From: an uncultured Clostridia bacterium
GTDB lineage: Bacteria > Bacillota > Clostridia > Christensenellales > UBA1242
Direction of reading: 5' to 3'
DNA length: 64,000 nt
NCBI GenBank assembly: GCA_930990515.1
Contig: CAKNPS010000004.1
Location: 1-64,000 of the forward strand
Below the pieces are notes generated by a model, which ran no database searches, was not told the origin of the DNA, and was given only the letters and a program-made list of their open reading frames with translations. Made by a program: the position numbers and the translations under genes. Positions 58,748 through 62,112 of this stretch are shown piece by piece. Within the stretch, counting starts at the first letter, position 1. Every line of letters begins with the position of its first letter.

Positions 58748-60064
58748 TTATGGAAATAATCTTTTTGGGCCTCTAAATAGAAAAGTTACTTCTTTAACCC
58801 CAGGAAGTTCAAATAAACTTGTTAAAGTTCTTGTGATGCCGATTGCAAAACCACCATGAGTTGGAGCTCCATATTTAAAGAACTCTAAATATTCTTTCAT
58901 ATTTTCTGGTTTTATTCCGTTCTCAATAATACGTTCTTTTAATTTTTCATAGCGATGTTCTCTTTGAGCGCCAGAAGTTATTTCTAGTCCTTTAAAAAGT
59001 AAGTCGTAAGAATTGCAGATTTCAGGATTTTCTTCATTTTTCATTGTATAGAATGCACGGGCACTTGTTGGAAAGTCTGTGATAAAAACGAAGTCAGAAC
59101 CATATTTTTCTTTGACATATTCACAAATCAATCTTTCGCCCTGAGGATCTAAGTCGCCTTTAAGTTCTCTTGGGACTTCATAATTTTTATGAGTTTTTAA
59201 AATCTCATAAACTTCATATAATTTGATTCTTGGAATTGGATTTTCTATTTGTGGAACCTCAATATTTAATATCTTTTTGAATTCTTGACCAAATTCTTCT
59301 TTTAAGTTTTTTAAAATGTATTTTAGAAGTTCTTCTTCGGCGTCCATAACATCGTGATGTGAATGAATGTATGATATTTCCACGTCAATTCCAGTAAATT
59401 CAGTGTCGTGGCGAGAAGTGAAAGATGGATTTGCTCTAAAATATTCGCCAATTTCAAAAGTTCTATCAAAGCCAGCCATCATTGACATTTGTTTATATAA
59501 TTGTGGAGATTGTGTTAAATAAGCTTTTTGTCCAAAATAATCTTTAAGTTCAAAAACTTCAGAACCGCCTTCTGACGACAAAGCAGTTATCTTAGGGGTA
59601 TGAATGGAAATATAGCCATTTTTTGTGAAATATTCCCAAGCATACTTTTCAAAAGCAGTTTGAATTTTAAAATAAAATAATTTTTTTTCATTACGAAGGT
59701 CTATCCATCTATAGTCCAATCTTAAATCCTGAGCAGAATTTTGTGAAATAGGGGAAGTTTCTGCAATTGATAAGACATTAATGTTTGATGGATAAATTTC
59801 AATACCATTAAGTTTTACATTTACGGCAGAAACACATTTTCCTATCACTTCAATAAAACTATTTGTTGTTAATTTTTCAACTATTTCAACAAGAGTTGGA
59901 TATTCTGATTTAATGATAGTAATTTGAGCGGATCCAGTAGCATCAGTTAAAACAAGAAAAATCATATTTTTTTGATTTCGTATAGTTTCAATATATCCTG
60001 CAACAAGCACTTCTTCTGTTGGTTTTAAATTTTTTATATATGTTCGTTTAATAGTTTCTTTCAT
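58748..60064 (-). CDS. aspS: Aspartyl-tRNA synthetase, archaeal-type (probably non-discriminating Asp/Asn)
   Basis: DLRLDYRWIDLRN, SPQLYKQMSMMAGFDRTFEIGEYFRANPSFTSRHDTEFTGIDVE, C-terminal RGPKRLFP. Confidence 0.85.
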   Translation of the reverse strand: MKETIKRTYIKNLKPTEEVLVAGYIETIRNQKNMIFLVLTDATGSAQITIIKSEYPTLVEIVEKLTTNSFIEVIGKCVSAVNVKLNGIEIYPSNINVLSIAETSPISQNSAQDLRLDYRWIDLRNEKKLFYFKIQTAFEKYAWEYFTKNGYISIHTPKITALSSEGGSEVFELKDYFGQKAYLTQSPQLYKQMSMMAGFDRTFEIGEYFRANPSFTSRHDTEFTGIDVEISYIHSHHDVMDAEEELLKYILKNLKEEFGQEFKKILNIEVPQIENPIPRIKLYEVYEILKTHKNYEVPRELKGDLDPQGERLICEYVKEKYGSDFVFITDFPTSARAFYTMKNEENPEICNSYDLLFKGLEITSGAQREHRYEKLKERIIENGIKPENMKEYLEFFKYGAPTHGGFAIGITRTLTSLFELPGVKEVTFLFRGPKRLFP

Positions 60065-60136
60065 ATTATTCTCCTAATTTAAATTCTTAATTTAGATTTT
60101 TTAATTATAATTAATATTATATTCCTAAATAATAAA

Positions 60137-60202
60137 CTAACACTTCGCCCTGCCAAAGGCGTCAATACTTTTTACTGAACCAATATTAATATTAATTTTC
60201 AT
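60137..60202 (-). CDS. 21-aa small ORF
   Basis: MKININIGSVKSIDAFGRAKC; SD aaagaggt 5 nt upstream. Confidence 0.4.
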   Translation of the reverse strand: MKININIGSVKSIDAFGRAKC

Positions 60203-60244
60203 ATTTACCTCTTTAACCTTATAATTTTGTTGTTTAAATAAAAA

Positions 60245-60278
60245 TAAGCCTTGGGTTCTGTTTCCCAAAGGCTTTTTA
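60245..60278 (-). terminator. Attenuator terminator in aspS leader
   Basis: Minus strand AAGCCTTTGGGAAACAGAACCCAAGGCTTATTTTTATTT. Confidence 0.65.
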
Positions 60279-60310
60279 TAACTATTTTTGCCATGAAACA
60301 ATGAACCCGA

Positions 60311-60370
60311 CTAAATCGTGTTTGAATCATCGTCATCGTTTACATTAACAATTGAGTGGATGTTTTTCAT
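60311..60370 (-). CDS. 19-aa putative leader peptide with Asp/Asn run
   Basis: MKNIHSIVNVNDDDDSNTI, upstream AAAGGA; lies between promoter and terminator of aspS. Confidence 0.55.
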   Translation of the reverse strand: MKNIHSIVNVNDDDDSNTI

Positions 60371-60392
60371 GACATTTTCCTTTTATGCTATA

Positions 60393-60421
60393 ATTATAGA
60401 ACGATAAAATTAATTTGTCAA
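60393..60421 (-). promoter_or_regulatory. Promoter of aspS leader transcript
   Basis: Minus strand TTGACA (60416-60421), 17-nt spacer, TATAAT (60393-60398). Confidence 0.8.
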
Positions 60422-60449
60422 CATTTAAATGAAAATATTTTTTAAATTC

Positions 60450-60478
60450 TTGACATTTAAAATTTTGTCTGCTATACT
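60450..60478 (+). promoter_or_regulatory. Promoter of tyrS T-box leader
   Basis: TTGACA (60450-60455), 17-nt spacer, TATACT (60473-60478). Confidence 0.8.
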
Positions 60479-60484
60479 TTGTTT

Positions 60485-60865
60485 GTTTTAATCAAAATGG
60501 CGGAATAGGACTAGTAGATTTAAAAATTACCTTTTAGAGAGAGATTGGCTGGTGAAAAATCTTGGGAGTTTTAAGTTGAATTACACTTGTTTCAAGTTTT
60601 GCGTTAGTCCACGAACGGACATAATAAGGGTTATTGACTTTTGAATTTGCTTGTGGGATCAAAACTTCTTTAAGTTGCGACAAAACGCCAATGTAGAGAA
60701 GCGTAATGCGTTTTCGCTTGGTCGCAGATGTTGAAAAACAAGTGAAAGGCGATGCTTTTTGAAAAATCTCAAAAACGAGCAAGAGCGAAAGTTTTTCAAC
60801 CGAATTTAGGTGGTACCACGAACGCACGCTTCGTCCTAAAAATTTGGGAGAGCGTGCTTTTTTAT
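60485..60865 (+). promoter_or_regulatory. T-box riboswitch leader of tyrS
   Basis: T-box core AGGTGGTACCACG near 60808, terminator gcacgc...gcgtgctttttt, TAC-containing putative specifier segment (gaattacac) near 60580. Confidence 0.9.
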
Positions 60866-60876
60866 AGGGAGAATGT

Positions 60877-62112
60877 ATGAAAGTTGACACAAATTTATTT
60901 AAGGTTTTGAAAGAAAGGGGCCTTTTATATCAATGCACTGATGAAGATGCCCTTAAAAAAGTTTTGGAAAGTGGAAAACCTATCGCTTTATATGAAGGAA
61001 CTGACCCAACGGTTGATAGTTTGCATATTGGACACTGCGTTCCATATTGCATTTTGCGTCGTTTCCAACAAGCAGGTCACAAAGTTGTGCTTTTAATGGG
61101 CGGTGCAACAGCATCAATTGGCGACCCAACAGGAAAAAGTGAAATGAGAAAGGTGCTTGATAAAGACACCATTAACTCTAATATTGAAAAAATCAAAAAT
61201 TCACTCAAAGTTTTCCTTAAATTTGACGGAGATAACCCAGCAATCATTGTCAATAATAAAGATTGGTTCACAGGCTATGATTATGTTGATTTTATGCGTG
61301 ATATTGGCAGACATTTCAATGTGAACAAAATGCTTGCAAATGAAATTTATGCCAATCGTATTAAAGAAGGGGGCTTGACACTTTTTGAACTTGGTTATAT
61401 GCCAATGCAGGCTTATGACTTTATACATTTAAATAAAGAACACAACTGCACGCTTGAATGGGGTGGTGCTGACCAATGGGGAAATATTGTCGCAGGTGTG
61501 GAGCTTGCAAGAAAACTTAACTATGAAAATGGAACAAACATTGAACTTATTGGAGCAACAAATCCACTTCTTTTAACTCCAGAAGGAAAGAAAATGGGAA
61601 AAACAGAAAAAGGTGCAATTTGGATTGATAAAGATAAGATTTCTGCTTATGATTTCTATCAAGGAATTTATCAAACACCAGATGCTTGTGTTGAGATGAT
61701 GTTTGCCCTTTTCACTGATTTACCAATGGAAGAAATTAGGGGTCTTATCAAAGAAGATATTGTCAAAGCAAAGAAAAGACTTTGCTATGAAATGACCAAA
61801 TTTGTTCGTGGCGAAGAAGATGCGATTGAAGCCCAAAAGATGAGTGAAAACTTGTTTGCTGAAGGTGGGAGTGATGCGCCAGTTGTGGAAATTGCAAAGG
61901 GCGATTTTCCAATGAATATCTGCGATTTACTTTTCAGAACAAAACTTGCTCCTTCAAAAAGCGAAGCAAGACGACTTATTCAAGGTGGAGCAATAACTTT
62001 CAAAAGCGAAAAAGTGACTGATTTCTCAATGCAAGTGTCAGCAAGCGATATTGAAGGTGGAGCACTACTTAAAAAAGGCAAAAAGAATTTCATTAAAGTT
62101 GAATTAAATTAA
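60877..62112 (+). CDS. tyrS: Tyrosyl-tRNA synthetase
   Basis: YEGTDPTVDSLHIGHCVP, C-terminal S4 domain, T-box. Confidence 0.97.
   Translation: MKVDTNLFKVLKERGLLYQCTDEDALKKVLESGKPIALYEGTDPTVDSLHIGHCVPYCILRRFQQAGHKVVLLMGGATASIGDPTGKSEMRKVLDKDTINSNIEKIKNSLKVFLKFDGDNPAIIVNNKDWFTGYDYVDFMRDIGRHFNVNKMLANEIYANRIKEGGLTLFELGYMPMQAYDFIHLNKEHNCTLEWGGADQWGNIVAGVELARKLNYENGTNIELIGATNPLLLTPEGKKMGKTEKGAIWIDKDKISAYDFYQGIYQTPDACVEMMFALFTDLPMEEIRGLIKEDIVKAKKRLCYEMTKFVRGEEDAIEAQKMSENLFAEGGSDAPVVEIAKGDFPMNICDLLFRTKLAPSKSEARRLIQGGAITFKSEKVTDFSMQVSASDIEGGALLKKGKKNFIKVELN

Follow-up and report, generated by a model that had tools for sequence, protein, structure and literature searches.

A predicted leader-peptide attenuator with an Asp-enriched Asn codon run precedes an archaeal-type aspS gene in an uncultured Clostridia bacterium

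In the window, a 64,000-nucleotide stretch of contig CAKNPS010000004.1 from an uncultured Clostridia bacterium, a single short region separates two divergently oriented aminoacyl-tRNA synthetase genes whose charging sensors apparently differ. One of them, tyrS, is preceded on the plus strand by a T-box leader that scored 81.2 bits (E 3e-17), below the Rfam gathering score of 93, and by a promoter-like site that stands back to back with the promoter of the aspS leader. The other, aspS, lies on the minus strand and encodes an archaeal-type aspartyl-tRNA synthetase (AspRS), as a preliminary description of this DNA had stated. The same Rfam scan that detected the adjacent tyrS T-box left the aspS leader empty (60050-60430, minus strand): neither the T-box family (RF00230) nor any other Rfam family matched it, at the gathering threshold or up to E = 5.

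The preliminary description had also proposed a set of attenuator parts upstream of aspS, all of which we found in place (Table 1). These are a perfect TTGACA-17-TATAAT promoter, a 19-amino-acid leader ORF in which four Asp codons are flanked by Asn on both sides (NVNDDDDSN), and an intrinsic terminator with a competing antiterminator. Region 2, the 5' strand of the antiterminator, begins just 3' of the leader stop codon, and region 3, the 3' strand, lies in the terminator loop and 3' arm. Their pairing (GGGTTCATTGTTTC with GGGAAACAGAACCC) is worth -11.2 kcal/mol for a 13-nt core and -20.6 kcal/mol for a longer stretch. The leader ORF is the only small ORF dense in Asn and Asp (N/D) codons in the 64-kb window, against an expectation of 0.05 per 64 kb in first-order Markov sequence; given this expectation and its recurrence in dozens of relatives, the arrangement is beyond chance. 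Between the terminator and aspS, within the interval that the preliminary description covered and absent from it, lies a second small ORF (ORF2).

Table 1. Features of the aspS leader and its surroundings, in window coordinates.
Feature	Position	Strand	Observation
Promoter TTGACA-17-TATAAT	60393..60421 (TTGACA 60421-60416, 17 nt, TATAAT 60398-60393)	-	Consensus matches 12/12
Leader ORF (ORF1) MKNIHSIVNVNDDDDSNTI and stop codon	60311..60370	-	N/D-rich homologues in ~60 relatives
Sensor-run core, four Asp codons GAT GAC GAT GAT	60326..60337	-	Asp in run mostly aspS-linked
Region 2 GGGTTCATTGTTTC, antiterminator 5' strand	60295..60308	-	Own-terminator pairing, permutation tests
Intrinsic terminator hairpin AAGCCTTTGGGAAACAGAACCCAAGGCTT, then ATTTTTATTT	60246..60274; T-rich tract reaching 60236	-	-12.7 kcal/mol
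Region 3 GGGAAACAGAACCC, antiterminator 3' strand, within terminator	60253..60266	-	Pairing with region 2
ORF2 MKININIGSVKSIDAFGRAKC	60137..60202	-	GAGG resembling a ribosome-binding site; relatives have counterparts upstream of asnA and aspS
G+C-rich part of ORF2, CGCCTTTGGCAGGGCG, a divergent version of the conserved AAYGCCGTAGCGGGCGA hairpin element	60146..60161	-	By eye, 19 leaders
Weaker promoter-like site	60156-60129	-	Matches 10/12
aspS, archaeal-type AspRS, 438 aa (predicted regulated gene)	58748..60064	-	Tree
Two ORFs after aspS, 223 and 321 aa	56983-58619	-	GGGTGRT motif in the second
Promoter-like site	60450-60478	+	
T-box leader of tyrS	60492-60841	+	81.2 bits, E 3e-17
tyrS	60877-62112	+	

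Sequence profiles built from window-like and Asn-run leaders were used to search the genus and then the family (310 genomes, 42 genera), and approximately 60 homologous leaders were recovered within this one family of Clostridia, mostly from metagenome assemblies. The genes behind them are asnA, gatCAB, archaeal-type aspS (often as aspS-gatCAB) and bacterial aspS. We could parse a short ORF with a ribosome-binding site and a codon run in the window and in 58 further leaders; by downstream gene, these 59 comprise 19 asnA, 13 gatCAB, 20 archaeal-type aspS and 5 bacterial aspS leaders, as well as 2 for which the gene was unidentified. TTGACA or TTGACT promoters stand at the equivalent position in 10 of 10 leaders checked. 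The preliminary description had named homologues without the Asp/Asn run or the antiterminator pairing as counterevidence; the homologues, compared on both counts, favor the attenuator. The AspRS proteins most similar to that of the window, those of loci L031 (74% identical) and L032 (72%), have leaders that read MFVSFVNDNNNDNNALDLMGSFIIVD and MIAIRVNNNNNDDNALVLMGSFIVVD, respectively, at the matching position, and another aspS clade of the genus has Asn runs in its leaders (e.g., MQKIAMIIVNNNNNNNNNALNLMGSFYYC).

Some matches are less regular. A leader-like sequence whose start region is altered, with no related gene detected downstream, occurs at L158/L140 (genome G091) and is possibly decayed. 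The same leader precedes genes without an assigned name at L185 (G557), L180 and L187, and at the latter two asnA lies about 1 kb further downstream. L205, L208 and L215-L220 were judged to be chance matches, as were the inspected profile matches beyond the family, from 396 genomes sampled across the order, which lacked such a leader before a related gene.

Covariation among homologous leaders, the check that the preliminary description had put forward, revealed pairing of each leader with its own terminator and compensatory changes. An intrinsic terminator could be called in all 59 leaders, and in 53 it was at or below -7 kcal/mol and accompanied by a usable anchor for region 2, which was placed via its G-run and not via pairing. 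Summed over these 53 leaders, the pairing of region 2 with the leader's own terminator reached -599.1 kcal/mol, compared with a permuted mean of -421.3 (sd 14.7), and none of 20,000 permutations equaled it; a hand-checked set of 23 leaders gave the same outcome (0/20,000). Compensatory pairs include GGGTTCC/GGAACC, GGGTTTC/GAAATCC, GGTGCC/GGCAC, GAGCC/GGCTC and GGATTTTC/GAAAATTC. By eye in the alignment, the Asn codons AACAACAAT are in many leaders complementary to TTGTTGTTG directly 3' of region 2, which resembles the protector pairing of the classical attenuation model. The parts of the putative attenuator, their conservation and the covarying pairing can be read directly from the sequences.

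We modeled the competing structures from equilibrium energies and an assumed ribosome footprint. With the ribosome on the last codon of the run, which lies a median of 17 nt 5' of region 2, the antiterminator reached a value of at least 0.5 in 52 of 53 leaders (median, 0.95). With the ribosome at the stop codon, the median was 0.0 for the antiterminator and 0.95 for the terminator, and the terminator reached at least 0.8 in 49 of 53. For the window, the modeled antiterminator values were 0.75 in the stalled state and 0.03 at the stop codon, where the terminator value was 0.91.

The homologous leaders, the covarying pairing and the modeled ribosome states support the ribosome-mediated attenuation of aspS that was originally proposed. 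The aspS leader is very probably a classical ribosome-mediated transcription attenuator that belongs to a family-wide Asn-sensing set, of which the window copy would be an Asp-enriched version suited to a stand-alone AspRS gene. A ribosome that follows RNA polymerase would translate the 19 leader codons. With ample charged tRNA-Asp and tRNA-Asn, it would reach the stop codon and cover region 2, such that the terminator forms and transcription stops before aspS. When charging is low, the ribosome would stall on the N/D run and leave region 2 free to pair with region 3 in the terminator, and aspS would be transcribed. What we infer from these features is that the leader is translated, that the ribosome stalls and transcription reads through, and which charged tRNA is limiting.

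Archaeal-type AspRS together with GatCAB is a known second route to Asn-tRNA beside AsnRS (PMC4206432). Searches of the window genome identified one GatB and no AsnA, and neither AsnRS nor a bacterial AspRS was detected above family cut-offs. The genome has a second archaeal-type aspS, which lies in a gatCAB operon behind a T-box with the specifier AAC (Asn); the Asn route would therefore be under T-box control, and gatCAB is not linked to the leader-bearing aspS. T-boxes, seen by a conserved motif, also precede some other aspS genes of the genus. GatB is encoded shortly downstream on the same contig at nine leader-bearing archaeal-type aspS loci (G024, G064, G067, G068, G115, G116, G009, L031 and L032), and loss of the aspS-gatCAB linkage was seen for the window copy only. 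Among the 15 genomes searched for AsnA, none has AsnA and GatB together, and G124 and G125 have neither. The two ORFs that follow aspS in the window sit where the nearest relatives have gatCAB.

The preliminary description had expected the window AspRS to charge tRNA-Asp and tRNA-Asn alike, which makes it at most a candidate non-discriminating enzyme. In a tree of AspRS sequences, the window enzyme groups with those of L031, L032 and L066, and this grouping brings together gatCAB-linked enzymes and adjoining leaderless ones from genomes in which GatB was not found. The leader-bearing window group and the leader-bearing clade of L002 and L068-L073 are not sisters, which implies that the leader moved between aspS genes, that the gene was replaced beneath the leader or that the leader was lost in between. 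The anticodon-binding domain has Glu26 and Lys85 in the window enzyme and likewise in most relatives of either gene context; the corresponding residues are Trp and Lys in the discriminating AspRS of T. kodakarensis, and position 26 is His in S. tokodaii.

The part of the preliminary description that took the codon run as a sensor is supported, while its reading of the leader as an Asp/Asn device needs modification. Pure Asn runs predominate among relatives, before asnA, gatCAB and aspS, and Asp codons therefore seem to have been acquired later, in the aspS-linked copies; Asn, not Asp, is the likelier ancestral signal. From this it is a short step to propose that the window leader also senses Asn alone and that its Asp codons arose by drift, given that GAY is one substitution from AAY and that Asn codons are retained on either side of the Asp run. 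We consider this unlikely, as Asp in the run is tied to aspS: it occurs in 11 of 25 aspS-linked but only 1 of 32 asnA- or gatCAB-linked leaders (Fisher p = 0.0002, with shared ancestry ignored), or in 11 of 26 versus 2 of 34 when three leaders read by eye are included (p = 0.001, likewise ignoring shared ancestry). Asp was read by eye in the run of the asnA leader L211. The Asp-bearing aspS leaders span several genera and both AspRS types. Within genome G657 the run is pure Asn ahead of asnA (L177) but DNNNDNN ahead of aspS (L204), and the four consecutive Asp codons of the window form the longest Asp run seen. We thus favor sensing of both Asp and Asn charging by aspS leaders, presumably with the strongest response to Asp in the window copy. 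The run itself is a mixture of Asp and Asn, and either could be its main signal.

Two other explanations would remove regulation from the leader altogether. It could be the relict of an aspS-gatCAB attenuator whose function disappeared after the local loss of gatCAB, consistent with the lack of a downstream gatCAB, a leader stop codon that comes earlier than in L031 and L032 and the divergence of ORF2. Decay of this kind is improbable, however, in a leader whose promoter, ORF, terminator and antiterminator are all intact, whose modeled states are like those of relatives and whose antiterminator, though specific to the window in sequence, retains its pairing (GGGTTC:GAACCC plus TGTTT:AAACA). 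Alternatively, the short ORF could encode a functional peptide ahead of an ordinary constitutive terminator, and transcription of aspS could start at a more downstream promoter, for which the weaker promoter-like site in Table 1 is a candidate. This we regard as very improbable: across the homologues the peptide is variable outside the N/D run, even in length, and it is the nucleotide pairing and its spacing that are conserved. Attenuation by a translated, codon-sensing leader remains the reading that we prefer.

Counterparts of ORF2 were identified in 30 parsed leaders with asnA or archaeal-type aspS. Scored by pattern, they occur in 17 of 19 asnA leaders, in 13 of 20 archaeal-type aspS leaders (one doubtful) and in none of the 13 gatCAB leaders. 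The conserved stretch, AAYGCCGTAGCGGGCGA, comprises an Asn codon and, 3' of it, a potential hairpin rich in G+C. In six asnA leaders (L134, L135, L137, L138, L139 and L157), a sequence such as CTCCTTAAAA lies 3' of ORF2 and, by eye, has two alternative partners, the end of ORF2 (TTTTAAGGAG) or the asnA ribosome-binding site (TTTAAGGAG); matched differences in these pairings, also by eye, occur among the six. This suggests a possible second, translational control step in these leaders. The window shows no comparable arrangement, and no anti-Shine-Dalgarno sequence was seen 3' of its ORF2. At L066 (G124, about positions 318-402), the reading frame of ORF2 apparently continues into that of aspS, and no clear ribosome-binding site separates the two; the contig is short and possibly misassembled.

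The enterobacterial trp, his, thr, leu, ilv and pheST attenuators, of which pheST is a synthetase operon, share the mechanism and the order of competing regions proposed here; the amino acids differ, and no sequence relationship is expected. A search of an open-access library, which omits most subscription papers, returned no report of an Asn or Asp leader-peptide attenuator, and to our knowledge none has been described. Only a few leader-peptide attenuators from Firmicutes appear in the literature surveyed. The nearest precedent is the set of His leader peptides of hisS/hisZ and his operons in Firmicutes (PMC2965389, PMC9413887), likened here by description and not by sequence: these also combine a short ORF bearing a codon run with a terminator and antiterminator, in a T-box-rich group and with an aminoacyl-tRNA synthetase gene included, but they sense His, whereas the present leaders would sense Asn or Asn plus Asp before asnA, gatCAB and aspS. 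The transamidation operon of Clostridium acetobutylicum has a two-codon T-box (Saad 2013, as cited in PMC4052509). According to that secondary account, it likewise makes a tRNA-dependent transamidation operon responsive to uncharged tRNA-Asn, but its RNA binds tRNA directly, with no leader peptide or ribosome, and senses Asn and Glu tRNAs. The tandem attenuators of the Salmonella mgtCBR leader (PMC3641672) also involve two small ORFs, one of them rich in codons for one amino acid (Pro); the mgtCBR ORFs respond to separate signals (ATP and Pro), whereas ORF2 here sits 3' of the terminator.

Judged by comparison with its homologues, the predicted attenuator is real and its mechanism ordinary; the apparent novelty lies in the amino acid, the gene set, the Asp-enriched variant and the second ORF. 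More broadly, we tentatively propose, with slightly less than even confidence, that this Clostridia family possesses an unreported Asn regulon built on leader-peptide attenuators whose codon run evolves with gene function (Asn before asnA and gatCAB, Asn together with Asp before aspS), with ORF2 in many members adding an Asn-dependent step that is probably translational. One element is common to genes for three steps of Asn-tRNA supply, those encoding AsnA, GatCAB and AspRS, and these putative Asn-supply attenuators occur in a group that also uses T-boxes. The aspS paralogues of one genome, one with a T-box and the other with a leader peptide, allow the replacement of tRNA-charging sensors to be studied. 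If the proposal is true, a single profile would predict the Asn regulon across a bacterial family, and its leaders would provide a natural series for relating codon content to gene function.
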